A DNA stretch of 64,000 nt. It comes from Rhytidiadelphus loreus (Eukaryota > Streptophyta > Bryopsida > Hypnales > Hylocomiaceae). The position numbers were made by a program, and so were the translations under genes. Position 1 is the first letter of the stretch. Each line of letters begins with the position of its first letter. Under the pieces are notes generated by a model, which was given only the letters and a program-made list of their open reading frames with translations, ran no database searches and was not told where the DNA came from. Location: the NCBI GenBank assembly GCA_947034895.1, contig OX344761.1, positions 29,338,863-29,402,862 of the forward strand, in the 5' to 3' direction. Below, one piece after another: positions 9,919 to 56,786 of the stretch.

Positions 9919-9926
9919 CTATTGCC
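9919..9926. other. Half of an 8-bp target-site duplication (partner at 56779-56786)
   Basis: CTATTGCC follows the E' terminus. Its exact reverse complement GGCAATAG follows the other E terminus at 56778. In normal configuration both flanks of one hAT insertion would be direct repeats on the same strand, so this half has been inverted. Confidence 0.85.
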
Positions 9927-11435
9927 TGCTTTGAGGTTGCTAAGGAGTCACATGAGGTCCTCCAGTGGTTGTTTAAACAGACACAGTTTCCAGCATTGAT
10001 TAAGGCACAAGAGGGGGGGCAGCTATTAAATGTTGACGGTATTGGCAACTTCAAAGTACAGTGGCATTTGTCTGCGGATATGAAGACCATCAAATGCCTG
10101 TACGGATTGAAGCATGGAGCCAATGCCATTCATTCTTGCATCTATTGTAACCAAGCGCGGACAAAGCCAGTGGTGGGAACATCGGCAAGTGCTACTTCAG
10201 AGGCTAGGAGAAGAAAGCATACGTGGCATGGAGGTCTATTTGCTGGTAATGTCCTCTCGAAACCAGTATCCATTGAAGAAGAATCTCGATGGAAACCTAT
10301 TTTGCCCATCCCACTTGAGAGGGTGCATATTTGTACACTGCATGCTTTAACAAGGATGATGGAGAAAATCCTTCACTTGCACTTCATGTTCATTTGGAAC
10401 ATGGAGAATGAGGCCCGTCAACAAGTTGCTATAGAAAATATGGAGAGGACGTTGTCAGCAGCCGGGCTTCATGGTGGCAACGTGCGCATAATGAAGGACA
10501 CAGTGCTCAATGGTGCTTCCAACAGTGTCCCTGTCAAACCCTCCCTCAGTGGCGTGACTGCTGGTAGGATGTTCCAACCATCCACTTAGTCAGGGCAAGA
10601 TCAAGTTTGGAAGGACATCTTGCGCTCAGAAAACAACACACTCAATCAAGGTAGGCAATATCTTGAACGAGTAGAAATGTGGAAAGCGTTGGAAACAATA
10701 TATCCATATTTGGTCGGTTTGTCTTTGGATCAAGAGCAAATTGACACTTTCAAGGGCAAGATTGAGACTTGGGGGCGCCTTTATGTTAAGTGCTTTGGAG
10801 AAGACCACGTCACTCATTATATGGTAAGTTCTGAACATGCATGGTAACTCTTTTTCAGGGTGATGTTGGAATTAAAATGGAAGTTATGCTTTCTATGGTT
10901 TAGTGTTTACTGTTGCGTATTGCTAAAGTAACTAAACTGTTTCGGAATGATTCAAATGTAGGGTGCCATTTTCTTAAGGATGTGTGACTAATTTGGGTCA
11001 TTTTTGTCTTTGAAGCATAACCTTGTGCGGCATGGTCCATGGTATGTGCAAACATATGGGAGCCTTGCTGTTTGGAACAACCAAGGGATGGAAAAATCCC
11101 ATCATGCAGCGAAGGCGGCTAATCAACATCACACTCAGCATGGTGGCACCAAAGATAGAACAAGTGCCATCGTGCAACAATATCAACATTGGTATAGAAA
11201 CATTCAACATAGATTTGCAAAGAAGGTGGACTTGCTAGAATCGAGGAACATCAAGACAGTGCACAATGACCCTACAATGGCTACCCAGTTGCAGAAGAAG
11301 AGGATGGCCTATAGTACATCAAACGGGCTAGATGCAGCTAGAAGGTGGAGGGAGAATAGAACACGAAAAGGGAGAGCTTGGGTGAGAGTTGCAGCAGAGG
11401 AGGGTGTTGAAGACAATGACATGAACAGCCTCTAG
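9919..11435 (+). pseudogene. Gene G, 3' half (large spliced protein of unknown function), split by E
   Basis: The frame enters from the E junction as PIACFEVAKESHEV and continues the frame that ends ...ETEIWPIA at 56779 on the other strand. The open frame extending upstream to 9885 is only read-through into the E terminus. An in-frame TAG lies at 10587-10589, with coding character continuing in the same frame. An intron at 10824-11015 (ATG|GTAAGT ... TTGAAG|CATAAC) joins VTHYM to HNLVRHGPWYV in phase 0. The last exon ends at TAG 11433-11435. Visible features are a CIYC zinc-knuckle-like pair and a ..YGSLAVWNNQGMEKSHHAAK.. segment. It reminds me of multicopy proteins of unknown function in other eukaryotes, possibly transposon-derived, but I cannot name the family. 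Confidence 0.75.
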
Positions 11436-11751
11436 AATCGGAGTATTGAAGCAAGGTAGTTGTTGACAACGTACTCGAATTAGATGAACCATGTAGAAGC
11501 ATCTGACATGTAGGAGTTTGGACATATAAGTTACAATAGTGATGTTGAAAACACTAAATGTTAACATTATATATTCTAGAATTCAAATGTTCAAAACTAT
11601 CCATTTTCACAACTGTCACTTGTGAAGAGTTGTACATGCTTATATCATTGAGCATGATAGTGCAAGTTTGAAGTAAGTTAAAACTTAAAGTATACTAGAA
11701 ACACTACTTTGGACCAGTCCCCATTTGAAATCCTGCAGCATTCAGCCATTG
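11436..11751. other. Short spacer between gene G and RING gene 1
   Basis: AT-rich; no gene or repeat structure recognised. The in-frame extension of the neighbouring minus-strand exon (to about 11700) ends here. Confidence 0.5.
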
Positions 11752-13747
11752 CTAGGTTTCCTGTTGATGGAGATCTCCCTCCCCGTGTCCAATTGAAAGA
11801 TTGAATTCAGAGTGTCTTGATGATAAAGCTCCATCTGAAAGTTTTCGGAAGTTGGTGCCACTTGGAGAATCCCACGAAATGTTGAAACGCATTGTCCCTG
11901 GAGAGTTCGGAGACGCTACTGCTAGAAGTTCCTGACGCTGTTGTGGATGTCCGTCTGCAGCAATCACAGCTGAAAACGTCTCTCCTAAGTTTTCTACAAT
12001 GCAATTATCAACCAATGTGACACCATCACCGAGCTCTCACATCATTGGTGGTATGGAAGGTTTAGGGTTTGCTCCCCACCCTTCACTTCTTCAAGGCCTG
12101 GCTCCATGACTGCAAGACATACAATGCATGTACATATGGTTTAGGTATTAATGAACTAAGAAAAAAAGAAGCATGCTTAGCCAGAGAGGTCAGTGGAATC
12201 AGCTCACCTGTCTTTAGGGGTGCTTCAGCCTCCAGCCTTTTTTTCATGCTGCCAACATCCTGCTCCATTCGTGCTGTAAGAGGAACCCCAAATTGAGCCA
12301 TCCAAGCTCCACAGAATGCGGTCTCACAAAAAGGACACGTATGTGAATTCTCTTCCAGCAACAAGGCAATGCATATAGGGTGAAATCCACAACCACAAGA
12401 AGCAATGATGACAGACCGTGCTACAAAACCTTTCTTCTTACAGCCTGCACAGAATTTGGGTCCTGTAATTGACAATGAAGGTTCAAAACGAGATGCTGGA
12501 TATACAAAAGGAGCTCTTGGTCGCATTGCAAAGGAAGAACCTTTGAGCTGCCGAAACTTCTCTAGGGCGGTGGCAACACACGTTTTTGAATGTGCAACTG
12601 CCTTCAGTGCCTCCGGCAACGCTGAAGCTTGATTGGCCCGACAAGAGTCAAGTGATTTCGCATGCATCTCCCTCGTTGAAATCAATTTGTCCACCAATTG
12701 TTGTCCCTCCCTCAACTTTGCCATGGCACTCTCGTGCGCGCCTTGGCGTTGCATCGCATAAGCCTCGTCAACCAAAGCCGTATACTGCGCGTTTAGGGCC
12801 CGTTCATCTCTCTCTAGGGCAACCAGAGCCTCAACTGATTCATCCATTGCCTTCATGAGCTGGTTGCGTGAGGTTCTAGCTTCTTCAGTTAGTTTCAGGA
12901 ATCCACGCAATTTGCTTTCCGCCCTTGCTACTGCTGAAGAACTTGTCCTGCTATGTGAATGTCTCTTGCTGCTTTCGTGCCGCCTGGTCCCCGGAGACCT
13001 GTTGGAAACAGTTGTAGACATAGGCAACTGACTGCTGGTTGTGCTCTCGGGAGGTCGGTAGTAAAGAGATACTGCTGCGCACAAAGTAGCAAGTTGTTGG
13101 CGCATTGCTACAGGACCTAATTTGTGTCGGTTTAGGTTCTTCTGCTCCATGCGCACCTTGCGCCTTTTAACTGCCTCTTTCACCCAGTCTATTTCAACCT
13201 TGTGTATGAACATGGCAAAGCAAGCGCATAAGAACCTCAAAGAAAAGGAGTTGTTGCAAGGCTGCCCTCCATACACTTGCTGATAGTGTTCCAGGAATTG
13301 TGCCGCTTGGGCATTGTCTGTTGCCAACGCCATTGGAAACCTGTACTTGTCATCTGCCTAGTGTTTCCACTTCTCCTGGATCTCAATGTCAGTAACTCCC
13401 GTCTTCTGCAATACTTGGTCTACTAGAATGCCACGGGAGCAGAGACCAACGATAGTGCCAAAGAATTGCTCATTGTACACACCATGACGACCTTGAAGCA
13501 CGGGTGCAACAGTACACATGTGCTGCTTCATCAATTCCGGAATTCCTTCCATTGGAATTGGCTCTTGGAATTCGTCGTTCATAACGCCTACTGCAATGTT
13601 TCCACCGTCGTCATCATCTTCAGGGACCACATCCTCGACCAAATTGGGTGGTGTAGAATCACAATCCTCCATGACCATTCTCCCATCTTCTATGCCCAGC
13701 CTCCTCCTCCTCGCGGCACAAGCTCGAGTGTTTCTTCCGGGACTCAT
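11752..13747 (-). pseudogene. RING-finger protein 1 (WCHI-related fold), one intron, one in-frame TAG
   Basis: ATG at 13747. The frame is interrupted by TAG at 13358-13360, but the protein aligns straight through it with the gene at 16900-18720 (KH*ADDKYRFP against GANKSRFP). The N-terminal part has APVLQGRHGVYNEQFF. This is followed by a helical segment (YQQVYGG...FLCACFAMFIHKVEIDW) resembling the second half of the WCHI domain, a coiled coil, and a C3HC4-type RING at about residues 435-480 (CAGC...CGFHPIC...CPFC). A strong donor at 12207 (ACAG|GTGAGC) and an acceptor before 12035 join in phase to a last exon ending at TAG 11752-11754, which might itself be a mutated codon. It is probably E3-ligase-like; the partner is unknown. 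Confidence 0.65.
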
Positions 13748-14786
13748 GGAGCACGATGAAAAAGCCTTGAATCAACAGAAGTATCCCACTCGCAATGGGA
13801 GCTCACAAGCAAGTGAGATTGTTCCAAGCAGATGAGATTGCTCCAAATCCGATTGACAAAGGGCGCCCAGAACACTCCCATACAGGCTCAGTCCACGATT
13901 GGCAGAACCAAATTTGATCGGGAAAACTGAAACCAGGGAGACCCCATACAGTCAAACATTGGAGGCATGATGGTACTACTGAATGCTTGTACTCAGTGTG
14001 GTGGCAACAAGTCGAGGTCATATGAAAGGCTATTAATGCTGACTCTAATCACTGAATGGTGGAAGCATGTCACAGACCTCTTATAAATCATCGCGATTTG
14101 AGTAATCATAGTTGGGTGTTGTAAAATTTTTAGTCAAGTGGAAATGCCCAACATTTTTTGTTCCCGGGTACCGATTATAAAAAAAATAATATTCCCACAA
14201 AGCTCATCACTTTTTTGAAAAAAAGTTTCAAAAAATTACGACAAAATTTCAGCCCGTAGGTACTTGCCCAAAAACATATTTGTCCCCCGAAGGAACAATG
14301 GTCCTTTAGGGATTAACCCCTAAAGGACCAAGGGGTGGTTTTTTGGCAATAAAACTTTTTTGGGCCAGTGTATGTGGGCAAAGATTTCCATATTTTTGGC
14401 CCAAATTTTAATACAAAGTGTGGACAAAAAAATCTAAAAGGAATTTTCATTCTACTCACTATAAAAATCCAAAATTGTATTAATTGTATTAAATGTAATT
14501 TATTTGTGTTACAAGTTTTTTCTTAGATATAAGTAGAACAAAATTATAAAGATATCTAAAAGTTTAAAAAAAAAAAATCATTCAAATGTCTTATTTGTTC
14601 TTTAATATATAAATTTGTTTATTAAAATATATAATTTTTGAATTAGGCATGGCAAGTTTTGATAAGTTCATAAAATATTTTCATCATTATTTTTATAGGA
14701 CAAAAGTGAAATGCAAAAGAAATGAAATTTTTTTTGATGAAATTTTCTAAGAATTTGTTTAAAATAAAAAATAAGGTTCTCCAATG

Positions 14787-14817
<31 letters not shown>

Positions 14818-16690
14818 GTTAAATTAATTAATTAATTATTGGTTTATTTATTTATTTATTTATTTTAATCTTGTTATCAATACTTTTTTATCAAAAAAAT
14901 ACATACACATATATGAATATAGATTGAGGGATAATGGCAATTTGTTTTTTTGGCTTCAAATATCTATAATTAACTCAATATATTTATAAATTTGCATTTT
15001 TCATGGTGGCAATGACAATGACCTCAAAAAATGCAATTGCTGCATCTTTTGCACTATAATCCTTTGAAACAAGCTCCATACATGAAGTGAAGCCATAAAT
15101 TTCATTTATTTATTAAATAATCCCAGTTTAGTAATTTATAAAAATTATAAAAAGGTTCTTTTGGTATAACAAATTTCTGAATTTTTCATGATTTTATTAT
15201 CATAAGAAATCATAAGTACACTTTGGTATAGCATTAACCTTGGAATTTTTTATCTATTTTTTTCATTTTGTTTTCTACCTATATTATATATAATTACATA
15301 TATATTTACATTATATATAAAATATGTATAGATTTATATTTATATGCAAAAATGGAATTTTGTAAATTCATTAATTTAAAATAATTGAATAAATGGGACT
15401 CCATTTCATTAAATTTGAAAACCAAATATTCAACATCTAAGCCAATATCTAAGCCAAGAAGTCTCAGAGGAATTGTAAGGTGTTTCTACTAATTCTTAAG
15501 TTAATTTTTACTTTTGTGTATTTTTGTATGGGTTTTGTCCACCTCTCAAGACTACAAGGGTGTGCATTGTGAAGAATTGCTTCCAAAGCACCCTGTAGAC
15601 TTGAATGGTACCCATCGGAGCAAGGCCCACAATTTCATTTCTTTTCATTTCTTTTTTGAGGTGTGTGTGTCTACCCTTCAAGATGATAAGGGAGTGCATT
15701 GTGAAGAATTGCTTCCAAAGCACCCACCTGATAGACTTGAATGGTACTCACTGAAGTAAGGCCCACAATTTCATTTTGTTTTAAATATTTTTTTGGGTCA
15801 CTGGGATGTTCTCCTGGTTGTCAACATAGTCTACTGTAGTGTGTACTTGCATGTCGACTTGTCCAACCGAGTCCTACAAGAGTAGCACCATAACCTTGTG
15901 CGGGCACCTTCAGATTCATTCCCGATCCCTTCGCTCTCAGAAGACATAAAAAAATGCACCACCTTCTTACCTAAACCTTGAAGACTCCCTTGACGCAGAA
16001 TCCAAGAAAACATCTCTATTCTAGAACCGTCAGCAGACGTACTCTCTAATTGCTAGCAACCAGACCAACCCGTTTCATGTACCCTAAGTAGAAGACATAC
16101 CCTGAACTGTCGTGAATACTCGGATCCACCTCGTAGGATGCCTTGTATCCGGAGAAATACAACAAAAACTGCCTTTGGCAAGGCCGGGCTTCTATATTTT
16201 TGAGCATTTTTTTTTTTAATTTTTTAATTTTCTTTGCTACTTTACAAACAACAATGTAGTTCTCCGTATTCCCAACAAAACCCTAATGCCACACCTGAAA
16301 CAGCTGAGTTCCAGAATCATAGGCCAAAAGTGCTTGCTTCCTGCAAAAGGGGTTAAGAGAGTGCACTAAATCTTGAACCCTAATAAATCCTTTGATATTG
16401 TGAATGTTGGTTCGCCTTAATGTTGACAACATAATTCTCACTTAGTAGTTAGTACACTTTGAAAGAAGTCACTTGGCTTTACTCCCATGTCTTGGTGTTC
16501 GGTTTGCTTCATCATGAGTCCTCATGGTACATGATTAAAATAAGCTTAAGAGGTCCACTCACCCGTTTCCATCAAAGTACATGATTAAAATAAGCTGAAG
16601 ATGTCAACTCGTACCCGCTATGTTTACTGCCAAAGCCACCACTGTAATTAATTTCTGTCTTGTAAAACCCTGAACCCATCTTCCTCCTGA
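13748..16690. other. AT-rich intergenic region with simple repeats and diverged repeat blocks
   Basis: No gene is supported. It contains a diverged copy of the dispersed block (14150-14290), a (TA)n run at about 14786-14806, TAAT and TTTA microsatellites at about 14820-14865, and the tandem duplication listed separately at 15500-15775. Short direct repeats 'gtacatgattaaaataagct' are at about 16530 and 16577. Confidence 0.6.
15500..15775. repeat. Two-copy tandem duplication, 132-bp period
   Basis: The phrase gtgcattgtgaagaattgct starts at 15562 and again at 15694, with flanking similarity on both sides. The copies have diverged. No coding function is evident. Confidence 0.7.
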
Positions 16691-16899
16691 CGCCAAGCAT
16701 GCTTCAGAGAAAAACCCTAAACCATTCTATTTTCTGTGTCTACAGCTTCGGAGCTCTACTACTTGTTTCCATCACCTTGTTTTCTCTCTCCGCTACTTGT
16801 TGCCATCGCCTTCTTCTCTCTTCCTTTGCGCCTTCTTCTCTCTTCCTTTGCCGTTGTTCTCTGTATAGAAAGCCTCTCTTGCCTTCCTATGCTTCCAAC

Positions 16900-18720
16900 A
16901 TGACTACTGGGGGCAGGAGCTCACGATCAAAAAGCCTTGTGAAAGACAAAGTGGCTCTTCTTGAAAAGGAGCGGATGTCTCCGAAGACTGCAGGGAAACA
17001 ACCGAAGAAGGTGGTCACCAACGACGGTGGAAGTGGCTCAGTTTGGGATGAGCCATTTGGCTTAGCGGGGTTTCCAAAGGAGTTGCGACGGTCGTTGGTT
17101 GCGGTGGCACCATGCTTGTTAGGAAGAGAGAACACAATTTACGATGAGAAGTTTTTTCACAAAGTGGTAGGACTTTGCAACACCGGTCTTCTGCCCAAAG
17201 ACGTGACGGACGTCCATGTTCCACCGGAGCTCTACGAGGACGACTGGACTACTGGGGAGGGTGCGAACAAGTCAAGGTTCCCACTCGATAAGTGTGGCGA
17301 TCCAGTTGCCCGAGATTTATTCCTTAAACTTTACCAGAGAGTATACGGCGATGTCCCCGACAACAAGGCGATTAGCTTGACCTTCCTCCGTGCGTGCGTG
17401 TTTTATTACCAAGACAAGGTGAACAGGGTCAATTGGGCTGCTGCAGCTGCTAAGGTGATTACAGACCGCGGAAAACATGCTGGAAACAACCCTCAGAAAT
17501 TGGGTCCTCCAGCATTGAAGGATCAGTTGGCGGGCATTGTGAAGGAGTGCGCAAGGTATATCAATCAGCATTGTGGAGGTCGGGGCATTGGTGGAGGTGG
17601 AGGTGCTACTGGAGCTGGTAGTGGTGGGGGTGGAGGTACTAGTGGAGAGATTAGTGGCGACAGTGCAGTGCGGAAGGTGGAGCAGCTCTTGAAGGAGATC
17701 CAGTCGAGGACTCGAGCACTGGAAAAATCCGGGCAGGCAATTCAAGCCCTGGAGGTAAGGACTACAAAAGTTGAAGCTACCGGTCAGGAGTTGGAAGCTG
17801 AGGATGAGCGCCTCAATGAAGTTAAGGAGGACCTACGGAAGAAGAGCAAGGGCCATGCTATAGCCGGGGAGGTGACAAAAAAGGCCGAGTGTGACAAACA
17901 ACAACGTCAGGTTAGCAAACAAATTGCAGCTAACAATGACCTTTGGGAGTCCAACCAGGCGTCCTTGGAGAAATTGAAGGTGACCTTAGAGCGTGATCGC
18001 ACTCAACAGGAGCGTTGTGAACAGGACCTGGAAACGATGCGAAAGAAATGGGCAGCTGAGAAAGCATCGCAATACTCCATGAAGCCGAAACATCCTGTTG
18101 GGATTAACGTGTTGGAAGAGGGTGTTGCTCCAAATCTGAAGGTAGACACACCATGTGGAAGCTGCTCGCATCTATTTGTTGCCAACTGTGCTGTGCCTTT
18201 CTCATGTGGTTGCTTGTTTCACCCGTGGTGCTTGTGGGGTGAACTAGTGTCTGGTAGGGCCGTTTGTCCTCGTTGCAAAGAAGTGGCGAAGCAGAGTTGG
18301 TTGGAATCATGGGGGTGTGACGGTTTACAACAAGTGGATCGGGATTCTATCGTCAAAAAAGAAGAATGTATGCCTCTGCCTCCCAAGCTTGCTGTCCGAA
18401 AGAGAGCAGCTGTTGGAAACACTGACTCTTCACCACCAGCGAAGGTTATTAAGCCGAGGGGTGCAAATAAGGGTGCATCATCCCCTAGTGGTTCTTCTAA
18501 AGCTCCGTTGCCCTCGATTGGTCCTCCTGAGGGTCCATCGCCTGTTGCTGGTAAGAGTGGAACACATGTCCCTCAGATTCTGGCTACCCTAAACCCAATT
18601 ATCCTACCAATTCCGTGCTTTGCTAATCGTCCGCGTGGGAGCCCACGCATAGAAGCTATTGCTACAGCGATTGAATGCCTCGGTCGACATAGTACGTGTC
18701 CAATGTTCCTCGAAGATTGA
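16900..18720 (+). CDS. RING-finger protein 2 (WCHI-related fold, coiled coil, RING), intact
   Basis: A 606-residue frame from ATG 16900 to TGA. The frame is open back to an ATG at 16699, but the intervening CT-rich sequence (ttcttctctcttcc) looks like a plant 5' leader, and the paralogue at 13747 also starts close to its conserved region. Layout: basic N-terminus; conserved VAVAPCLLGRENTIYDEKFF and LYQRVYGD...FLRACVFYYQDKVNRVNW (WCHI-related); a Gly-rich spacer (about 228-250); a coiled coil (about 255-395); a C3HC4-like RING at about 418-458 (CGSC...CLFHPWC...CPRC); and a Ser/Pro-rich tail. It is likely a ubiquitin-ligase-type protein; substrate unknown. It is one of the few uninterrupted genes here and lies head-to-head with RING gene 1. 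Confidence 0.7.
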   Translation: MTTGGRSSRSKSLVKDKVALLEKERMSPKTAGKQPKKVVTNDGGSGSVWDEPFGLAGFPKELRRSLVAVAPCLLGRENTIYDEKFFHKVVGLCNTGLLPKDVTDVHVPPELYEDDWTTGEGANKSRFPLDKCGDPVARDLFLKLYQRVYGDVPDNKAISLTFLRACVFYYQDKVNRVNWAAAAAKVITDRGKHAGNNPQKLGPPALKDQLAGIVKECARYINQHCGGRGIGGGGGATGAGSGGGGGTSGEISGDSAVRKVEQLLKEIQSRTRALEKSGQAIQALEVRTTKVEATGQELEAEDERLNEVKEDLRKKSKGHAIAGEVTKKAECDKQQRQVSKQIAANNDLWESNQASLEKLKVTLERDRTQQERCEQDLETMRKKWAAEKASQYSMKPKHPVGINVLEEGVAPNLKVDTPCGSCSHLFVANCAVPFSCGCLFHPWCLWGELVSGRAVCPRCKEVAKQSWLESWGCDGLQQVDRDSIVKKEECMPLPPKLAVRKRAAVGNTDSSPPAKVIKPRGANKGASSPSGSSKAPLPSIGPPEGPSPVAGKSGTHVPQILATLNPIILPIPCFANRPRGSPRIEAIATAIECLGRHSTCPMFLED

Positions 18721-18961
18721 AATAGTTTCTTGCTGGTTGAAGTTGTGTAAATTACTTAGTTGGATTTTACTCCTATTCATCACTCTTTCATGTCTTCCAG
18801 TTTGTTGGAAACGCGTTGGTTCTCTGTCCTAAATCATGAATGTGCTCTGTTGATGTGGTATGCTGAAAACAACAAATGAAACAATTGAAGCAAGGAGGAA
18901 GCTGGAAGAAGAAGCTGCCAACGCAGGAGTGACAATTGTGTCTCAGTCCAAGCCACACTCA

Positions 18962-19288
18962 TCAAACGTTGATGGCTTCTGGATCTAACAGCACTTGGTG
19001 TCTTTCGTAGGCATGTCTCACCAACATGGACTGCAGTTCCGGCTTGTTGGTGACAACCCTTCGCTTGTCCACCTTGAACCGGAAATCCACAATTTGAGCT
19101 TTGTATGCCCCCCTCATGTTGTCACCTCCAAGCCTGTGCGCCTCTCTAGCCCAACTGCCGACCCTTCCTGGATTAAGCCTCACCCACGAAAATCTCTCGT
19201 ATCGGGTGGGAATCCACTCACCATCGTCATTGTGTGTAGTGTGCAAGGTGACTGCACACACCTGGGCACGAGGTTGATGATTCTCCAT
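18962..19288 (-). CDS. Open frame of 108 codons, unrecognised, possibly a gene fragment
   Basis: The frame runs from ATG (19288) to TGA. Its composition looks protein-like (ERFSWVRLNPGRVGSW, KPELQSMLVRHAYERHQ), and the antisense frame is also open, which weakens the case. It lies next to the truncated F kinase gene and may be a remnant of a neighbouring gene. No domain recognised. Confidence 0.3.
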   Translation of the reverse strand: MENHQPRAQVCAVTLHTTHNDDGEWIPTRYERFSWVRLNPGRVGSWAREAHRLGGDNMRGAYKAQIVDFRFKVDKRRVVTNKPELQSMLVRHAYERHQVLLDPEAINV

Positions 19289-19629
19289 CGAGGCTCTTAA
19301 TTGTGGTCAAATGTATGCCTCAAGTCTATTGCAAAGGCGGATCCTTGTTTGAGTGGAGACAAACTATATGCAACCGGATAATTTGAACTCCAATTGTACC
19401 TTCCCGCCAAAGGTACTTCCACCCATCACCCTCACGGTGTGGCGGCTCTACTACTTGTTGTAAGCACGGTACAAACGGGACGTCCTAAGCATGGTACAGA
19501 CGTTGTCAACAACGATTTTTTAATAAAACTCCAAGGACCGTTTTCATGATGCCACCTTTAATAAATGGTTTCCATTCATTTGCAGCTATTGGGTGAAACA
19601 CCTTCACAATCTGATGTCACCACCTGAGG

Positions 19630-19657
19630 TTCCAACATGGACAACTCCATGTTGGAA
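19630..19657. other. Perfect 12-bp inverted repeat with 4-nt loop
   Basis: TTCCAACATGGA-CAAC-TCCATGTTGGAA. It lies just downstream of the truncated F kinase frame. It could be a terminator-like hairpin or a deletion scar; no function can be assigned. Confidence 0.5.
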
Positions 19658-19691
19658 TTAAAATGGATTTTCCATCGTACCTTTCTCGAAA

Positions 19692-20363
19692 TTAGACCAT
19701 TTTCTTTTTGGGCACTCCCACACCCCAATTCTCCTCTAATGCTATCCCTGGACACCCTTCAATTCGAACCCTACGAATTGTTGCATATCCACCCTTCATG
19801 GTTTTTTGGTCTTGAGCGATCACTCGTGCTGTGTCGGGAAGCGCTATGAGGTGTTGTCTGCCCCGATCCAGTTCAGCCACTCCATCAGTGCTATTCCACC
19901 AACCCAAAGATCCTCGTCTGTTACGGCTCTTTGCAAACGGCTTGCATCGTGCAACAAACAAGTCAGCTTTCAGAATGACTTCACGAAAATTCTCATCATT
20001 TTCCCGATATTGAGAGCCATACCTTGCTAGCACCATTGATGCATTCCACAATGCATCGTGGACCCTATTCTCCAAGAATTTTGGAAAGCCTTTCTTCTCC
20101 GTCTCGTGGTGCCATTCCGGAACGCTAAGCGCATTCATCATCAGTTGCCACATGTCCGCCTTGAATTTTTGCAAGCACTCCTTGTTGTACCTAACGTATT
20201 TGTTGTGTAGTGACATCGTCGTTTCCGACTCATAGAAATTGACGATCAACTTGATCAAAAATCTCTTGCATGCATCAGAGGGAATGTCCCTACTTGCCTC
20301 ATTGTGTGAACCTCCTTCATGCTCCATTTGTTTCCTCTTTGCAGCCTTCTTTGTTCGTGGCAT
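19692..20363 (-). pseudogene. Kinase-like gene of element F, truncated after the N-lobe start
   Basis: ATG at 20363 (MPRTKKAAKRKQ); the frame is 223 residues. Residues 25-150 form a helical N-terminal region resembling that of the E kinase. They are followed by LPDTARVIAQ and GGYATIRRVRIEG, which align with LPDTAK-type and GGYAKVRKVRIEG in E. The frame then stops at TAA, and the downstream DNA has no catalytic loop or DFG, so the kinase domain is missing. Upstream lies an F-type array with a TATA-like GTATAAGAG. I call it a broken remnant of the same cargo gene. Confidence 0.65.
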
Positions 20364-20574
20364 CGTGATGAACTTCTTGTACGAATGAATATTCGCAAAA
20401 TGAAATGATAAATTCAAGTTCAAGTGAAACTCGAACCAAAACTGAAAAAAATGGCAATAAGGGGCCCCCAAAATCGCACTCTTGCTTTCCCAAGAAGAAG
20501 AACCAATGGGGGCATGAACCACCAAGCTCTCCGCTTCACTCTTGCAATATGTAAGGGAGAAAACAAAAGTGAGG

Positions 20575-44762: not shown

Positions 44763-44934
44763 GTTGTACTTAAAAACAATTCAAAACCGTAGTTCAAAAT
44801 TCGTAGATTGAAAGGGTAAAAATTCCCCCCCCAATTGAAACCCCAGCCCATGGGCATGCATCCAGCCACCTGAAGGTAGGTGAAAGACAGTGCGCAAGGC
44901 TAAAGTAAGGTGAGAATCGGAAGTGGGGCTAACG

Positions 44935-46240: not shown

Positions 46241-46650
46241 CATACCCGCAGTCGCCCAAAGCGCAGTCGCCCTAGAACCCTAGGTCTGATTTTGGAAGTG
46301 ATATGGGGACCCGCAGTCGCCCCCTACGCGCAGTCGCCTTGATGGAAGGGGGGAGATTGCATTTTGAAATAGTTAAGTTGCTCCCACCTTGACCCGCAGT
46401 CGCCCCCTACGCGCAGTCGCTCTGATGGAAGGGGGGAGATTGCATTTTCGAAATTTTTGGTGTCTCCCACCTTGACCCGCAGTCGCCCCCTACGCGCAGT
46501 CGCCCTGACCCGCGGTCGCCCTGATCCGAGGTCGCCCGTGAAAGACGCGAGGCATCCTTGGACCGGACCCGCGGTCGCCCCACGCGCAGTCGCCCCATGC
46601 GCAGTCGCCCTAGTATCCGTGTTAGGGTTAGCGCATGCGCCTGTGGCGAC
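46241..46650. repeat. Additional E-type array in mid element
   Basis: ACCCGCAGTCGCCCCCTACGCGCAGTCGCC units, with a 95-100-bp higher-order repeat ('tgatggaaggggggagattgcattttg' at about 46333 and 46423). It has no obvious adjacent start codon; it may serve the spliced gene or be a former terminus. Confidence 0.75.
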
Positions 46651-46852
46651 CGCGGGTATTTCATGGGCTGTTCCAGCCTGTGGTCCATAATTTTCATAAC
46701 TACGCCTTGTAGTTCACCTACCTTGTAGTGGCTGAATGTGGGCCCAATGTTGTGGAGGTCTCGTGGTTTTTTTGGTTTCCCACAAACAGCCAACAATACA
46801 GCAGACACTTCTTGTATACTTCAATGAACCCAAAATCTTTTCCATTAGTTTA

Positions 46853-48173
46853 GGATAGTGAGAATATCAAAGCCATTTGATGTAGAGGGCCTTGAAACGG
46901 CAATTGCATTCATTGTGGCAAAGTTGTTGAATAATAAGGATGCACACACAAATGGGTGTGAAGTCACCGAAAAAGGGTACACTAAATTCACATTTAAAAC
47001 AATTAGCAATTCAAATGAAAATGATTCATTTGGTTCTTCATTGATTCTCTTTCATTTTTGGGTGTTATAGTAACGTAGGGGGGCCTCAATTGTTATGTAG
47101 CCTATTCAAATTTAATCTTCTTGCATTGCTAATGATTAGTTATTTGGCTCCTTACAGGCTTAATGGCAGGTGTTCAATTTAGCAAGTGCTTAGAGGAAGT
47201 CATAATTATTCTCGACCATGAATATTTCCAGTAAAAATTTGTTTAGTTTGCGTTTGACTTCCTTATTGTCATCCACTTGTATTGTAGACAATGTCTTTTT
47301 AATAGGTGGGAGAATCACTATGACAATGACTATTCTATTGGAATTGATTTGTGATCTTTGAAATAGGATTAAGGACTTTTGGAAAGGCTACAAATTGTAT
47401 TGCTTTGCTCATTATGGCCAATGCAATGAGTCCAAAGGCCATTTCCAAGCCAGCAAAATGGGTGAGTAAAATATTGCCCTTCATTTTGTATAGGTGATTT
47501 GAATCCTTGAATAATGAAATGAACATGTATTAATGAACATTTCTAGTTGGATAGTTAGTGGTGGACATTTCATCTCACTATTAGTGCTTATTTGCTGCAG
47601 GACGAGTGATGTGTTTGATACAAAACACATGCGATATTGTTTGGGGAGCCAAATTTGATGAGGCCATTAGGGAGGGGTGGGCCATGATGGAAGAATATGT
47701 GTGGGTTCGGCAAGGAAAAGATTGCACAAACCTCAGGTTCGGTTGTTCTAGTATAGAACTTGTATTATAAGATTATATGCTAAAAATACCCATATGTAGT
47801 TGTTATGTTTTAATATTCATTGATATGGGGGGCCGGGAGATGCAGGGCTTTATTAGAAGAATTTGAGGATGTCGAGAAACTTTTCGAGTCTGAGAATGGA
47901 TGCTTGTTGTTACAACTCATTAAGGTTAGTGCAATACCACAACACGAGTTAATATACTTGCTAGGTTAGTATTGTTTGTACCCCATTCTGTGAATATCAT
48001 ATGTACTAATGACAATTCCACCTTAGGATGATGAGCACGGGACGGAACGCGCATTTACACAATCTCTGAGCGTTCAAATCAACACCACGGATATCTTTGA
48101 GCAGACCAATAATAGGTTAAACCAAGCTCGCGCAAACTTGGACAACCTTGTGCCACGGGCAAATCGTTCGTGA
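46853..48173 (+). CDS. Small spliced gene inside element E, unrecognised protein
   Basis: Exons 47158-47230, 47367-47461, 47601-47736, 47846-47924 and 48027-48173 (TGA) join in consistent phase through GT..AG introns (donors GTAAAA, GTGAGT, GTTCGG, GTTAGT). The joined frame includes IKDFWKGYKLYCFAHYGQC, RVMCLIQNTCDIVWG and a C-terminal LNQARANLDNLVP. An upstream open stretch (46853 to about 47030; KPFDVEGLETAIAFIVAKLL) is a likely earlier exon, but its donor is weak and no start ATG is convincing. I do not recognise the family. With five exons it is unlike the nearly intronless cargo genes and may be a captured host gene or part of a nested insertion. Confidence 0.55.
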
Positions 48174-49430
48174 CTAGAGACATTGTTGTGGTGCATCAAA
48201 CGGCAGCCTTGTACCATGGCATAAGACCCTATTTTGATTTTTGAGTTGGGATCATAAAAAGAAATAAGTTATTTATGAAGATAATAGTACTAAAGTCATG
48301 CTAGACATGTGAAATAGCAATGTGCTTGACAAAGAACTTCATTTTACATTTCTATACTATGATTTTGCTAAACAATGCATGGATTGTTTATCTCAGATGG
48401 ATGATCATATTTTGCTAAACAGTCCATGGTATATGAATGTTTAATTGATTAGTGCCCAATACTTTAATGGTTTACATATGTGACCCCTCCCAAAAAATAT
48501 ATATCCATAAATGTGACCCCCCCAATAAAATATATACCCATAAATGTTGTGGCTTGTTATTCTTGGTTCACAAGTTTGAAATCCCCAAATATTGAAAATG
48601 TACAAATGTATGCCCTTGATTAAATCCCTTTGTTTGTAAATATGATGGCTACACTTTTAATTAATATGAAACAAGTTTTATTGTTTGGATACCTATGAAT
48701 GTACAGATAAATAAAATTTGAACAAAACCATGAAATCAGCTAGGAAATAGCTATGACAATTAATTGTGACAATTAGTTCCCAACTACACCTTCACGGTGC
48801 TTGATGAAGCACATGATGAAAGTTATATGGGAGCTCATGCTGTCACACCCAATCCTTATGAGATATTTGAACAACCATCTTACTACACCTATCCTATGCA
48901 TTGTATAATTGATTATATTGAGTTTTGTTCTCTCATGCAATTTATAATGTGTCAATCACACTTGACCATAAATGAATAAAAGGTATTTATCCCTCAATTC
49001 CCAAACCCCTTCTTTTGGAGCTCTTCGAAAGTGGTCTACATTGATCAAGAATCCCACATTCTTCATAGTTGGATCTTGTTTTACAATGGATTCACCATAC
49101 AAATTCAAACTAAACATAATAGAGATTGCATTGGAAAATAAAACGCAACCATGTGAATCATGGATGGTAAATTTCTTATGTTTGATTATTTTCTTATTGA
49201 AATTGCAGAAGTGATGTTAGGGTGGGAATCCTCTTTTTGCATGTCAAATCTAATAAGTTGCAACAATAATTAATAAAATGGCTAAAGATGCATAACCCAA
49301 ATTTTTAAATAAAAGATGAAAAGGTGCAATACATTTTTATGAAGTGCATTGGTAACTAAAATTTATGTCCACAATTTTGCGTAAGAGAACTTCAAAGTGA
49401 AAGTCTTAGAGGTTCAGAAATTCAAAATCC
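48174..49430. other. AT-rich spacer in E
   Basis: No gene supported. A short direct repeat 'gtgacccc..ccaaaaaatatatatccataaatg' occurs twice at about 48480-48545. Confidence 0.5.
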
Positions 49431-49640
49431 CGCCCTGTACCCGCAGTCGCCCACCCGCGGTCGCCCCACTGTAGGGGTCCAGAAATTACTCTGTGGTGCC
49501 CCATACACGGTCGCCCATCCCCAATAGCTCCAGACCCGCAGTCGCCTTCGCAATCGGCCCCTTAGACCCGCAGTCGCCCTACCCGCGGTCGCTCTCAGAC
49601 CTGCACGCGCCCCTTCCCGCACTCACCCCAGGGCGATTGT
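49431..49640. repeat. E-type array before the second WCHI coiled-coil gene
   Basis: GTACCCGCAGTCGCCCACCCGCGGTCGCCCC and similar units, sense to the gene at 49908. Confidence 0.8.
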
Positions 49641-49805
49641 GGGTTAATTAGCTGTCTCCCCACCCGACTTCGCCACTTTCCCTTCTTGCTGCGTATTGCC
49701 TTTCACCTACTTTACAGTGGCTGATTGCGTGCCCGGGAGCTTGGGTTTTGAGTTTCACTTACATGTGGCTCATGTTCTTGATTTTACTCCATCACTCACT
49801 AATCG

Positions 49806-49873
49806 CTAGATAATACTTTGCAGTTTAGGGTTAACTTTAGCTAGATAATACTTTGCGGTTTAGGGTTAAGTTT
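49806..49873. repeat. Tandem duplication with telo-box-like GTTTAGGGTTAA in the leader of the WCHI gene
   Basis: GCTAGATAATACTTTGC(A/G)GTTTAGGGTTAA appears twice in a row. A similar phrase (AACCCTAAACCGCATAGTACTT, inverted) is in the leader of the other WCHI coiled-coil gene at about 3418-3440, suggesting a shared leader element. Confidence 0.55.
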
Positions 49874-49907
49874 AGATTCCTTGTCCCAAATCTCAAGAGC
49901 ATCTCCA

Positions 49908-51515
49908 ATGGCGGACCACAAGAAGAAGACCAAGGCAAAAGGAGCCATGCACCCTAGGCAACGACGCATCCTTTTGGACCCAGCGTGTGTGGCCTACCGA
50001 GGTTGGGATCGAATTATGGGCCACTGGACCGCCAAGACTTGTAAGTCCTTCGTGGGGTGGTGCCACATCGACAAGTTATTCCCCTATCATCGGCACTACA
50101 CGAATCGGCGCAACAATATGGCCAATTTGCATCCATGCCGTAATGATGCATTTGTGCAACGTTGTATCGAAATTTATCGATACTTGTATGGCACATATTC
50201 AGTGCCCAGAAGCGAAGTCCCGTATTTCATATGTGCAATGGTGTATGCGGAACTCATTTTGTTTCGAAGCGTGGATTGGAGTTCAATCAAGGGAGTGAAG
50301 CATGCTCGCCTTCCACCGACAAAAGACATCCCAAGGGCGGCTCTATCTGCCAATCCACGTGAAGGGCTAGGCCAGAAGAAAAACTTGAAGGAGGGAGTGC
50401 CCGATGAGCAGTTTCATTGGACGTCATCTGATTCATCTTCGGGAGAGGAAGACAACCTTGGTGAAGACCCTCCAATGCAGCCCCAAAACATGGCGATGGT
50501 GGCTTCTACTTCACAAAATTTACCTCCCCCGAGAATGGAAGAAGAAGGTGAACCAGCTAGGCAACCACAAAATCTTGATATTTTGCCTCTTGCTATGGTG
50601 AATCCGATTATAGTCCCTCGCACTGAAGAAGACGAAGTTTTGCAGTATGTGCTTGCATGCACGCAAGAAGCAGAAGATGATGTTTTTTGGACAGAGATGG
50701 AAACAGAAGAAGATGTGAAGCCTTCTTTGTTCCAATTGGATTGTGTTGATGACATGTATCGAAGTGAGGAATTTGTTGAAGATGGAACTGTCCCTGACAC
50801 AGTAATGTTGGACACCAAAGTTGTTTACAAAGCTCAACTCAAGAAGCTTCTAAATGAGTTGGATGAAAAGCATCTAAAATGTGAGAAGCTTCGCAATCAA
50901 GAAACGCAAACTTTGAGTGGAGATATTGTGAATAGCTTACGTGCTGAACTTGAAAGTCGGCAAGTTCTTTTGTCAACGCAAATAACAAAGATTTTAGACT
51001 TGGAAGCATTTTACCTTAGATTCTCTTCTCGGCATGTTGGAGGATCTAGTTCTTCTAGCAATGAGTTTGCGAAATCACGGCTTGCCAAAATTATGGAAGC
51101 ATGCAAGCTGGAGGAAGATCAGATAGACTTGGAGAAGCGAGGGGTGGAAGAAGCACGATCAAGATTAAATTCCTTGAAAGCATTAAAGGACAAAGCCCCC
51201 CTTGACCGTGTTGCAGAAATGTGTGGTTGGAAAGACGTGGCTACTAAACAAGCATTGTCTCTTACGGAAGTAGTTGACTTGAAAAAGAAGCTTGGGGTTT
51301 CTTTGTCATTGGATCCAAAATTGGAAGAACATCGGGATGCACTGAAGGCGCTTTTGAAGTTCAAAAAATCATACAAGCAATTTTGGTTGGAAAAGAAGTT
51401 GGGGAAGGATGACCGATACCTTAGGAATTTGCAGTTGGAAGGTAGGAAAGTCTTGTATGAGATGGAACGTGAGGCTCATGACCGCAAAGAAAAGGCCAAA
51501 ATGGATGTTGAATGA
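49908..51515 (+). CDS. Second WCHI-domain coiled-coil protein of element E, intact
   Basis: A 535-residue frame from ATG 49908 (MADHKKKTKAKG) to TGA. A basic N-terminus precedes the WCHI domain (about 30-140: WTAKTCKSFVGWCHIDKLFP, NNMANLHPC, FVQRCIEIYRYLY, VDWSSIK). A Gln/Pro-rich and acidic linker (150-300) follows, then a coiled-coil C-terminal half (about 310-530). It is clearly paralogous to the protein at 39188-40678, but the two are diverged outside the WCHI core. It lies upstream of, and parallel to, the transposase gene. Function unknown; possibly DNA-binding with self-association through the coil. Confidence 0.8.
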   Translation: MADHKKKTKAKGAMHPRQRRILLDPACVAYRGWDRIMGHWTAKTCKSFVGWCHIDKLFPYHRHYTNRRNNMANLHPCRNDAFVQRCIEIYRYLYGTYSVPRSEVPYFICAMVYAELILFRSVDWSSIKGVKHARLPPTKDIPRAALSANPREGLGQKKNLKEGVPDEQFHWTSSDSSSGEEDNLGEDPPMQPQNMAMVASTSQNLPPPRMEEEGEPARQPQNLDILPLAMVNPIIVPRTEEDEVLQYVLACTQEAEDDVFWTEMETEEDVKPSLFQLDCVDDMYRSEEFVEDGTVPDTVMLDTKVVYKAQLKKLLNELDEKHLKCEKLRNQETQTLSGDIVNSLRAELESRQVLLSTQITKILDLEAFYLRFSSRHVGGSSSSSNEFAKSRLAKIMEACKLEEDQIDLEKRGVEEARSRLNSLKALKDKAPLDRVAEMCGWKDVATKQALSLTEVVDLKKKLGVSLSLDPKLEEHRDALKALLKFKKSYKQFWLEKKLGKDDRYLRNLQLEGRKVLYEMEREAHDRKEKAKMDVE

Positions 51516-51985
51516 TTTTCATTTTTAGCACATTTTTGAGGACTATGTATATTCCATCTTATGTATATATAAAAGGATATTATCCATTTTGAACATTTTA
51601 ATGCAAGCACATTGAATTCTATGTAGTTCCTTGACAAGAGTACATAAATATAGATATGAATTTTTGGTTATTTATGTTTGCAATGTTGTGAATACTTGAA
51701 TATTCTAGGAATTTTGGCAGGAAAATGACCTTGGGAGTTCGGACTTTCAGAATTAAAAGAGAATTAAAAAAAAAAGGAAAATTCAAAACTTGCCGGATTG
51801 GAAAAGAACTTGTTATTGAAGTTCAGAGCAATTGTCACGGCTAGGGTGAATTGACCTACTCATTGCCACTCCAGGGCAAACACTAGAAATTTTTATTTTC
51901 AAGGCTTATTTTTTTAGTGGAAATTCTGAATTCATAGTTTCAATTATAGACCCCAAATTACCCCAGGGGATGTAAGAATTATCCA
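51516..51985. other. Spacer between WCHI gene 2 and transposase array
   Basis: AT-rich 3' flank; no gene or repeat found. Confidence 0.5.
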
Positions 51986-51989
51986 AACA

Positions 51990-52214
51990 AATGGCAGTCG
52001 CCTGTTTCTGGACCCGTGGCGCCCACTTCTGGACCCGCAGTTGCCCATTACTGGACCCGTGGCACCCACTTCTGGACCCGCAGTCGCCCACTCCTGGACC
52101 CACAGTCGCCCACTTCTGGACCCGTTGTCGCCCATCACCTAACTGATTTCAGATTTTTGGACCCGCATTCTCTCATGGGGCGACCGCGGGTCCAAGGAGT
52201 TTTCTTGTATAAAG
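51990..52214. promoter_or_regulatory. E-type array and TATA box of the transposase gene
   Basis: Seven or more GGACCCGCAGTCGCCCA(C/T)T units at 52008-52195, sense to the gene, then TATAAAG at 52208-52214, about 230 bp before the ATG at 52443. Confidence 0.7.
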
Positions 52215-52442
52215 TTCTAGGGGTACCCCTTGTTTTATCACCTTGGCTCCGTTGATAAAACTCTTGTCTTGGACCTTCGAAAGAGGCTTCATGCGGACGT
52301 TTAACTTCTTCGGAGGGCAACAACCGTGTTTAGAAGGGTTTACAAGACCACTCTAAGCGGGTTGCTTTGTCATTACATCTTCCATAGTATTAGTGTGATT
52401 ATTGTAGTCATTTTCTTTGAAGACCCAGTGTTGATCTACTAC

Positions 52443-55400
52443 ATGGCTGGACAAGGTGTTGGGAGGGGGGGGACCATGAATGATACGCGGAGGTCCACAA
52501 AGGATTGGGACCCTTGGCTAGTACCGTGTACCCCAATTGATAATTCCCCCCATGCTCGAAAATGCGTGTTTTGTGGGTGGAGCAAAGCATTTGTACGAAA
52601 GAGAGCATTGATTCACTTTGGCTATGGCGGCTCGACTACATCGGAGCGTTGTAAGGAGATCCCTAGAATTGTACGAGAAAAGTTTCGGACTGGCGAGGGG
52701 CAAGTTCCAGGGTCCATGAGTTACGAAGAGATGTATGATGCACCGGCTAGACATGATGCACCAGTTAATGTTGCAGAGTCTATTGTCGCACCTGCGTTGG
52801 ATGTCGAAGAAGAAGGGTCTCTCAATCCCTTTGAATCAAATGCAAGACCAAATCCTACGCTTGATTCAGTAGATTCTACTGGAACAACGCTTGAGAGAAG
52901 GAGGAACATGCCATTTGTTTCTCGGCAAAGAAGCATGGATGAATCATTACAGACGGGCCGTAGACAAGAGTTGGATAGGTTGTGGGCTTCTTTCTTTTAC
53001 GAGGCGAACATTTCATTTAATGTTGTGCGCCACCCGGCCTTCGTGAATGCTGTTAAACAAACTGCAGTAGCTGGATTCGTGTACCAACCGCCACCGTATA
53101 ATGCGATTCGCACGAAAATGATAGATGTTAAGAAGGCATCGGTTGAAGCCATGGTCTCGGAGCGGACGAGGGTTTCAATAAGTCAGTATGGAGCGACAAT
53201 TTGTTCAGATGGTTGGTCCGATACTAATTCGCGGCCATTATTAAATATGATGTTGGTGTGTCCCGCCGGGGATGTCTTTTTGGGATCAGTGGATAGTACT
53301 GGGGAAAAGAAGGATATATCTTACACGACTGAGACGATGGCACGATACATTGAGGAAGTTGGGCCTACCAACGTTGTGCAATTGTGTACGGACAATGCTG
53401 CAGTCATGACGGGGGCGATGGCAAGGTTGGAAGAAAGGTACCCTCACATTTATAGGCAGGGTTGTGCAGCACACATTTTGGACTTACTCTTAGAAGACTG
53501 GAGAAAGGATTAGAGAGTAAAGGAGTTGGTAAAAAAGGCTTCATCAATTGTGAAGTTCATCAAGAAATACCAACATACTTTGGCGTTGTTTCGGAGATTT
53601 TCACCAAACAAAGTGTTGAGACTTCCAAGCAAAACACGTTTTGCCACAAATTTCTTGATGATTGATCGTTTGGTAGACTGCAAGCAAGCAGTGCACAACG
53701 TGACACTAGATGAGACATACATGACGTTCGAGTTGAATTTGCAAAACCGCAGAAATGGACATTTCATTATGGGCAAGGCCAAACTTGCAAGGCAAGATAT
53801 CCGTTCAGAAGAGTTCTAGGTTCAGTGCGACAATTTCCTCCATATGGTAGAGCCCGTGCTGCTTTGTCTTCGTCATTTTGATGGAAAAGTCCCGGCAATG
53901 CCGAAAGCTTTAGTAATGATGACAGCCTTGAAGGAGCACATTTATTCTCTCAAGAATGCTCCATTTTTCCTTGATCCAGTGGTGGCAACACGATATGAGA
54001 AACAATTTGATGCTCGTTGGAAGTTGATGATTACTGACCTACACTATGCGGGGGCACTACTAAATCCATACTTGAGTGACGTGGAGGCTATTCATAACAA
54101 TGGCTACACGAAGGGAGTTTTGAATCGAGTCATACGAAAACTGAGCGTACCATTGAACGTGTCAATGGTGGAAGCAATGCAGGAGCTAACTCAATTTGAA
54201 GAGAAGAAAGGTGCATTCGATCCTTTACATGAAGCTCCCGATATCATTGAATGTCAATTATTGCCTCATCAATGGTGGAATCGTGTGGGGGCAATGCTCT
54301 TCCAAAAATTGCAAAGCGAATTCTCGGTTTGACGTGCTCTACATCTTCGTGTGAAAGGAATTGGAGCATGTATTCCTTTGTGCACAATAAAGTGCGAAAC
54401 CGCTTGGCCACGACAAAGGCAGAGACATTGGTGTATATCTACGCGAACAGCAAACTTGAACGTCAAAAACGTGGACACAACCCAGCCATTTTTTACGACC
54501 AGATGCTTGCAGATGGAGACGATGAGGACGAGCGTGATGGGCCTTTGTCTTCAGGGGAAGAAGACGACGTTGTTCCAGATTTTATGAGAGAACGCGAGAA
54601 CCGCAGGGATGAAGAGGATCGGTTGCGCAACAATCCTTGGAATGCAATGGTTAGGCCGCCACATAGTCCTCCACGACCAATATACGGGAATACATTTGAT
54701 TTTAGTGACGATGGGTATGTTTCTCTGGGAAATTCACCTGTACGCAGTCCACCGCAGAACGTCGTGCACAATATGGATGCAATTTCGCTGGCACATGCAT
54801 CACTGAGGAGGGAAAGCACCCCCGACAACAACAACGAAGGCGTACCTATTCCCATGGCACCCGTAGAGGAAGAAGCTAGATCTCCAATATCAACTAGTTC
54901 GCCTCCAAATATGGCCCGCAATTTAAGAAGCAGTACACAAGTTCCAATGAGAAGCGAACATGAAGAAGAGGCCATCAAAGTCAATGAAGTAGTACATGAG
55001 GGAATACCAAATCCCGTTGTATTGAACGCATCTACCCTCGGAACAACTATTACTACAGATGATGATGATGATGTGCCATTGGCATATGTTATGAATCGAA
55101 GTCGGAATGTGCCGTTGAATCCAGAGACGACTACAAATGTGGCAACAGTGAGGAGGTCTATCCCAACCCTTCCAACAAGGCCACCGGTGTGTGGAGGTGC
55201 TCTACGGACGATTGATGAAGAGGTTCACGGCTCAGCTCCACAACCCACTCAACCTTCATCCGTGTCTGGCCCTGGCGAATCATCATTAGGAATCCAGGGG
55301 CGCAACAATAGAGGCCAGAAAAGGCGTATTAGGAGGGTTGACGAGAGGGGACCTCGAAATCCTAAACGACCCACTCAAATTGTCCAACGGTGTACCATTG

Positions 55401-55717
55401 GAGCGGGATGTTCCACCCAGAATGTTGGACAATCAAGTAGAGGAGGGCGACACCCTGCATCCAACATGGATGGAACTACGGATGCATTGAGGCTCACGAC
55501 ATGACTTGTGCAAACTGAAGGGTTCAGTGGTGTAGATACAGAAGTTCGAAATCTGAACTCAGAGGTAGAGCGTGAGGTACAAATCGAAGTAGTAACAAGG
55601 GAAGATGATGAAATCGAAAGCTCGGGCGACAACAGGAGCAACGAAGAGTCTTACGAAGATACAGACCCTAATGCTGATGAGGTGCCGAGCGATTCCACAT
55701 TCACGCCTGGTGACTAG
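52443..55717 (+). pseudogene. hAT transposase of element E (BED finger/DUF659 type), multiply interrupted
   Basis: ATG 52443 (MAGQGVGRGG). BED-type finger (CVFC...H...C, about residues 40-70); DUF659 region with CSDGWSDTNSRPLLNMML, LCTDNAAV and CAAHILDLLLEDW; C-terminal hAT dimerisation STSSCERNWSMYSFVHNKVRN; long acidic/Pro-rich tail. In the family these parts build the RNase-H-fold catalytic core and dimer interface that cut at the terminal repeats. Breaks: TAG 53511-53513 and TAG 53817-53819 (both at Trp positions of the F homologue), a 1-nt frameshift near 54300, and TGA 55502-55504 before a last 69 codons ending in TAG. The gene is probably dead as it stands. Confidence 0.8.
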
Positions 55718-56229
55718 AGTACTAGAGAAGTAGACAATAATTATAGTTATAATTATAGTTATAAGGTTTTAGCTTATATGTTAGGTAGCAAATCTTTGTA
55801 GTTCAAGCTTTGAGCCTTCATCCTGATGTGTAAGGATTTTGTAATGCTTCATCAAGCATATGAGCATATTAGAGTGAGGGACAGATTACCGGTTTTAAAA
55901 TATATGTTGAGTTCTAATTGGTAGGCAGTTAGGTGATGACTGCAACGAGGTTATAAAAGTGCAATGCAAGTATGGCTACATTTGAAGTCCGCCTCAAAGC
56001 AATATCGATGACTAATTAATATAATTGTTGTTGACATTATTATTGTGGCCTTATACTGGGTGAATTTTTGGGATTAGAGAAGTTTGTCCAATTTACATTT
56101 CATGGGCTCTATTATTTGCACTTGTAAATTGTAAACCCCAATATAACGTAGCACCTAATTCTGCGCTTATAAAACACCTATGTGATGTGTTACTTCAAAG
56201 ACTGAATATGCCAAATTCAAATCCTAAAC
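55718..56229. other. 3' spacer of the transposase gene
   Basis: AT-rich, with a small TATAGTTATAAT repeat near 55740-55760. No gene. Confidence 0.5.
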
Positions 56230-56600
56230 TGAACCTGCGGTCGCCCTGGAACACGTGGTCGCTGTCTGCTGCTCCGACCCGCAGTCGCCTTGTAACCCGT
56301 AGTCGCCCCTACTTGACGGACCCGCGGTCGCCCTCAGTATCCGAAGCCGCGGTCGCCCCTTCACCCGAAGTCGCCCTAAAGCCCCTGACCCGCAGTCGCC
56401 CACTCACCCGCAGTCGCCTTCAAGCCTAAACCCGCAGTCGCCTCTATTTTTTCCACCCGCGGTCGCCCCTTCACCCGAAGTCGCCCTAGCGCCCCAGACC
56501 CGCAGTCGCCCCTTCACCCGTAGTCGCCTCAATTTTTCCACCCGAGGTCGCCCAAGGCAGACCTACACGCGCCCACACCCGCAGTCGCCCACGCTGGCTG
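56230..56600. repeat. E right subterminal array
   Basis: ACCCGCAGTCGCCC/ACCCGAAGTCGCCC units on the plus strand, reading outward to the right terminus, the mirror of the outward-reading half of the left array. Confidence 0.85.
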
Positions 56601-56778
56601 TCCACGTCAGTTCCGAAGCCCTGCCACGTAGGCAAAATCTATTTACCATGGGGTAAAATTTTTTACCCCTCCGCGACGCGATGTCAAGTAAACTCGACAC
56701 TTCGTGACACGCGACACGCGACGTCAGACGTCATACACGACGCCTAAACCCAAAAATATGTCAGACAAGACAACCCTG
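56601..56778 (-). repeat. E right terminus and subterminal segment
   Basis: It includes TTTACCATGGGGTAAA (a near palindrome), then CGCGACG, GACACGCGACACGCGACGTC and ACGTC motifs, ending ACAACCCTG. Only the 9-bp tip and the motif layout are shared with the left terminus. Confidence 0.75.
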
Positions 56779-56786
56779 GGCAATAG
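56779..56786. other. Half of the 8-bp target-site duplication of element E
   Basis: GGCAATAG, the exact reverse complement of CTATTGCC at 9919-9926. On the minus strand it encodes part of ...WPIA of gene G. Confidence 0.85.

Follow-up and report, generated by a model that had tools for sequence, protein, structure and literature searches.

Inverted giant hAT copies around a 24-kb segment

The locus described here, C1:29338863-29402862, is a 64-kb stretch of a 407-Mb eukaryotic assembly of 489 contigs; we refer to the whole stretch as the window. Window position p corresponds to genome position 29338862+p, and negative values of p denote sequence fetched from the left neighbour. A self-comparison of the window together with 37 kb of leftward and 9 kb of rightward sequence revealed two inverted copies of one 22.6-kb hAT-type transposon. 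The copy designated E occupies 34170..56778 on the plus strand (22,609 bp) and has the ends CAGGGTTGT...ACAACCCTG. The second copy, E', was delimited by self-comparison and full alignment at -12629..9918 on the minus strand (22,548 bp); it lies mostly to the left of the window, out to C1:29326233, with its inner 9.9 kb (1..9918) inside. The 24,251-bp segment between the copies (X, 9919..34169) carries the rest of a second element, G, at its left and part of a third element, F, at its right. The first part of G is found on the far side of E.

E is assigned to the hAT type because it encodes a DUF659 transposase piece (52326-53510, plus strand, 5.6e-33) and a hAT C-terminal dimerisation region (54251-55501, plus strand; Dimer_Tnp_hAT 5.3e-5, 23.4 bits against a cut-off of 21.4). 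Both hAT features that were examined, a transposase with a C-terminal dimerisation region and an 8-bp target duplication, are found in E. The 34 relatives of the transposase include a fern protein (Ceratopteris) with 29% identity. A length of 22.6 kb is large for a hAT. Within the available parts of the literature on large cargo hATs and on this genome nothing was recognized as E, the nearest element listed there being the 14-kb fungal ToxhAT (PMC12506042).

E belongs to a repeated family. A query consisting of its outer 300 bases yielded 800 first-look candidates, and the right ends of the 40 that were scored, this locus among them, are 98-100% alike. Two of 28 other right-end loci carry no E sequence upstream. 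Three other copies were followed to the far end of the element: in one, AGGTGTAC is found on both sides of ends ~22.8 kb apart; in a second, ACTGGCGG and TCTGGCGG match at 7 of 8 positions with the ends ~23.1 kb apart; the far end of the third was not found. Because matching target-site duplications (TSDs) are seen in two of these three copies, we take them to be normal for E.

E also carries a protein kinase gene (43100-44077, Pkinase 1.1e-12) and a gene for a RING-like protein (36538-37512) whose best match falls just under the Pfam cut-off. CpG-rich subterminal tandem repeats of the type CCCGCAGTCGCC are located at 34362-34640 and 56300-56600, and two of the length differences between the arms, of 60 and 18 bases, lie in such repeats. 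A stretch of about 120-160 residues (W..YVDWCHI.KLFP.WRH..) is common to three open reading frames in E (35014-35730, 39191-40687 and 49881-51512) and one in the F part of X (26551-28227), with 35-46% identity to the 39191-40687 frame. None of the four has a Pfam match above cut-off, and none of nine relatives of one of them bears an informative name. It may represent a recurrent accessory gene of giant hATs. The F part, 26551-34169, resembles E in plan: it has the same stretch, DUF659, a hAT dimerisation region, and RING-like and BED-like matches that stay below the cut-off. Over 143 residues, the DUF659 proteins of the F part and of E share 43% identity. The transposase pieces (DUF659, hAT dimerisation and a weak BED match) at 30921..33703 on the plus strand are assigned to F by their position, the comparison with F copies covering the last 292 bases of X. 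Rfam gave no match within the window at gathering scores.

Exchanged target-site duplications and uninterrupted relatives

The sequence directly outside E, GGCAATAG at 56779..56786, is the reverse complement of CTATTGCC at 9919..9926, which adjoins E' (both read on the plus strand). The initial annotation had pointed to this correspondence following the element ends at 9918 and 56778, and it is confirmed: all eight bases match, at the exact element edges. Each 8-mer occurs once more within the 64 kb (at 59340 and 24545). The 8-mer by itself is modest evidence; its position at the exact edges carries the weight.

A second pair, part of which lies beyond the window, has the same arrangement. E is adjoined on its inner side by TATGGAAG (34162..34169, plus strand), the reverse complement of which is CTTCCATA, and outside E', at -12637..-12630, lies its partner CTTCTATA. 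The two match at 7 of 8 positions. Since all 12 F copies that were read have CTTCCATA at this site, the simplest account of the odd base is that the left copy later changed from C to T. The initial annotation had named a copy of CTATTGCC outside E', beside an unrelated gene, as a finding that would speak against its interpretation; the outer flank of E' is instead CTTCTATA.

Uninterrupted relatives exist for both sites. For the G site, a 600-base query spanning the site was taken from the uninterrupted copy L014, and 40 of 69 candidate places were scored. Two of these are the halves at this locus. The other 38, which include L014's own place, all run through the site, so that this locus is the only split one among those scored. 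Here one half ends at query position 301 and the other starts at 294, an overlap of exactly 8 bases. Direct alignment, which covered 7 of 39 other G places, gave the same result: in all seven, the sequence from 9919 onward is joined to that running leftward from 56779-56786, with one copy of the 8 bases, in agreement with the earlier claim that E inserted into G with an 8-bp duplication. The reading frame is preserved as well, as the initial annotation had proposed. In the uninterrupted copy L014 (4781-5929) the protein runs across the join in a single frame (...SVQSETEIWPIACFEVAKESHEV...; ...ETEIWPIACFEVAKE...). Two copies, L014 and L015, are each about 98% like both halves at this locus, and because of this shared likeness we conclude from the alignments that the halves derive from one G copy.

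While the join and the frame of "gene G" stand, its description as a gene must be amended, since the alignments identify G as part of a repeated, transposon-like family and not a single-copy gene. Its first part, 56787..59505 on the minus strand, ends at a terminus at 59505 that reads CATTAGAGCAAAAT inwards and past which this copy and four others no longer agree. Its continuation in X, 9919..14859 on the plus strand, aligns to L015 up to the end of the fetched piece, and the far part of L017 is matched by a further piece at 18568-18841. The aligned G copies did not reveal the far end of G, so a check through its own terminal duplication yielded nothing. G codes for a protein with the motif CIYCNQAR, without a Pfam match, and for a second protein whose RING and ALIX-like matches are weak and fall below the cut-off. 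Another E right end, on C3 (L018:1-718), lies ~1.4 kb from the start of a G-copy alignment.

For the F site, the two flanks were joined into a 592-base query, and 40 of 261 candidate places were scored. All 40 match at 99% over at least 590 of the 592 bases, and the 12 F loci that were read all align to the joined flanks without a gap.

All four flanks of the two insertion sites are present. Two exchanged TSD pairs, together with uninterrupted relatives of both sites, show that G was the target of E and F that of E', and that the assembly carries 9919-34169 in inverted orientation with respect to both insertions; the initial annotation's proposal that this segment was inverted after insertion is thereby supported. 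The second pair and the empty sites rule out a chance match of a single 8-mer. The multi-copy nature of G and F nonetheless allows a different history, in which the halves came from different, already split and rearranged element copies that received E independently, the 8-mers matching by chance or by target preference. We regard this as highly improbable. It would require matches of 8/8 and 7/8 at exact element edges in exchanged order, and G halves that overlap by exactly 8 bp and are equally like the same copies; moreover, of 30 loci, the 29 at which the E right end was readable (28 besides this one) have no 8-mer in common in their flanks when compared by eye.

Probable recombination between the inverted copies

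The following history would account for these observations. Two 22.6-kb hAT copies would have inserted in opposite orientations ~24 kb apart, one into a G-family and one into an F-family element, each insertion creating an 8-bp target duplication of the kind that the uninterrupted relatives reveal. Homologous (ectopic) recombination between the inverted copies would then have flipped the 24,251 bp between them and left each copy with one TSD from each site; the exchange itself is observed, and a crossover is its presumed cause. Pairing of the same arms may also have led to gene conversion that made them uniform over most of their length and spared the ends and a 1.5-kb patch, where they still diverge, an unevenness that is evident in the alignment. 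We consider it likely that the inversion arose by recombination between the inverted E copies, accompanied by conversion of the arms. Under this model the copies should lie in opposite orientation with exchanged TSDs, neither site should have lost sequence, and the arms should have exchanged sequence, all of which is observed. The mechanism suggested in the initial annotation is thus the best supported, and the homogenised middle of the arms is its predicted footprint.

The divergence between the arms is markedly uneven. Over the 22,457 bases of their full alignment, E and E' differ by 35 substitutions, of which 32 are transitions, and by six length differences, among them ones of 60, 73, 43, 48 and 18 bases (BLAST pieces give lower identities, 96.8-99.7%, being cut and shifted at the tandem repeats). 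An 8.6-kb stretch of E, 45490..54117, is free of substitutions relative to E' and has one 43-base length difference, at 52021; it is a probable conversion tract. A second stretch, 34369..44011, has a single substitution at 40352 and length differences at 34487 and 38939. The other substitutions fall in 44012-45489 (10), 54118-56778 (21) and 34170-34368 (3). When the 35 substitutions were placed at random, none of 100,000 trials produced an equally long free stretch.

For comparison, three other E copies were aligned, namely those that, E' apart, lie closest to E at the outer end rather than a random draw. Across 7,367 aligned bases of the middle (46500-54000), not one genuine substitution separates E from E' (the nominal 0.01% is an alignment-edge mismatch at 52021), and the three copies differ by 1.65-1.84% from E and E' and by 1.81-1.90% among themselves. 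At the outer end, E and E' differ at 19 of 1,782 bases (1.07%), and the three copies by 1.73-2.09% from E and E' and 1.26-1.52% among themselves. Among the ten pairs, the contrast between middle and outer end is clear for E/E' only (Fisher 5e-13; all others at least 0.14). Between ~79 differences (equal rates) and 105 (the pooled ratio of the other copies) would be expected in the middle of E and E', where no true substitution is seen. The arms have therefore probably exchanged sequence, as judged from this alignment, with the middle homogenised between E and E' or else represented by one assembler consensus used twice there. Homogenisation is preferred because a diverged patch lies in the middle and length differences occur inside the identical blocks.

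The outer end also bears on the relationship of the two copies. E and E' are mutual nearest neighbours there among the copies aligned (1.07%), the next being at 1.73% for E and 1.93% for E'. They share 14 non-majority sites, five of which are absent from 26 other copies. Among those 26 copies the divergence averages 2.06%, the smallest value being 1.14%; L032 and L040 were left out of the averages (30% and 48% mismatch to E, the upstream sequence there being something other than E), and no end match was obtained for L047. Such affinity would be expected if a single E on two sister chromatids had contributed one end from each to an insertion into the other site, a hybrid element insertion that would produce the inversion in one step with the same TSD pattern. 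Copies made in this way would be identical at birth, yet the outer end differs by 1.07% and the 8.6-kb middle by none, and later change and conversion, which are hard to tell apart here, would be needed in addition. We rate this origin as quite unlikely.

Several points weigh against recombination between E and E' as the source of the inversion. The uneven identity points to arm exchange, not specifically to crossover. As to chimaerism, which together with opposite orientation and exchanged TSDs makes up the criteria for Galileo inversions in the available parts of PMC2775673, no other copy reveals which half of E or E' came from which, since the two are each other's nearest relatives at the outer end. 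Selecting the three comparison copies by nearness at that end lowered their outer values. CpG is denser where the E/E' differences cluster; a mutation hot spot was considered as the cause of the uneven divergence and rejected, because the three other copies are similar in the middle and at the outer end, without a comparable gradient. Finally, the uneven identity could stem from one repeat consensus that the assembler used twice, and the inner junctions look the same whichever way the segment lies, so that only reads across E would reveal how the molecule is ordered. A 24-base pattern over the 9918/9919 join, with up to one mismatch allowed, has a single occurrence in the assembly; no second contig carries the join, and this has no bearing on orientation.

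A further possibility is an assembly flip, in which the E insertions and their TSDs are real and the loop between the inverted repeats was walked wrongly, the segment being uninverted in the organism. Arms of 22.6 kb with an 8.6-kb substitution-free stretch are hard to cross, the inner junctions do not distinguish the two states, and identical blocks would also result if one repeat path were used twice. However, 35 substitutions and six length differences, some of the latter inside the identical blocks, distinguish the arms, and the patch at 44012-45489, with its 10 substitutions, offers anchors ~10-13 kb from each flank, a distance presumably within the usual reach of long reads. A flip of this kind is unlikely in our judgment, and it would alter only the order of the molecule; all of the sequence facts would stand.

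Comparison with known inversions and significance

Recombination between inverted transposon copies is a known kind of event, described for Galileo in Drosophila. As far as the available text of the Galileo study extends (PMC2775673), the D. buzzatii inversion 2z3 resembles this locus in having inverted copies at both breakpoints, exchanged TSDs and a single target copy at the empty sites. Here, homologous copies in opposite orientation (E and E') are likewise present at both breakpoints, the TSDs are exchanged between them, and each empty site has a single target copy, these sites being those of paralogous elements and not of the same locus. Galileo belongs to the P superfamily and has 7-bp TSDs, its breakpoint insertions measure 2.9 and 4.8 kb, and chimaerism was demonstrated (PMC2775673, same parts). 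In contrast, the arms described here are 22.6-kb hAT copies with 8-bp TSDs, and the empty sites come from paralogous elements instead of uninverted chromosomes.

Transposition of reversed ends can also invert DNA. The available portion of the maize Ac/fAc study (PMC8225341) describes alternative transposition that shares with this locus the Ac-type element, the 8-bp TSDs and an inversion of tens of kilobases (80.9-81.8 kb in maize). According to the same portion, exchanged and usually non-identical TSDs mark nonallelic homologous recombination, whereas alternative transposition creates a new TSD at the junctions and loses the piece between the elements. Reversed-ends transposition was rejected for this locus: there is no loss of an intervening piece, the TSD pairs are exchanged, all four flanks are kept and each site is continuous in its relatives. 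Human inverted-repeat inversions, in the accessible parts of PMC3961182, likewise involve inverted repeats that flank a segment able to invert, and their breakpoints fall in high-identity stretches; there the repeats are mostly duplications, and recurrence was inferred from population data. What is notable at this locus is the combination of giant hAT arms, complete double TSD evidence and homogenised arms.

Target duplications that have changed partners provide strong sequence evidence for a transposon-linked inversion, and at this locus both pairs survive. Both empty sites are readable because the targets are themselves multi-copy elements, which suggests a route to detecting such inversions from one assembly without a second genome. 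Were the assembly flip true, the locus would serve as a warning about long inverted repeats. We raise, tentatively and with some doubt, the further possibility that the arms still recombine, keeping most of their length identical and making the 24-kb loop a standing flip-flop, and that such inverted pairs could quite generally give rise to small inversions in this lineage, because such elements may number in the hundreds (800 E and 261 F candidates, with the 40 of each that were scored being 98-99% alike). The arms record exchange between giant hAT copies, and this bears on the rearrangement of repeat-rich genomes.

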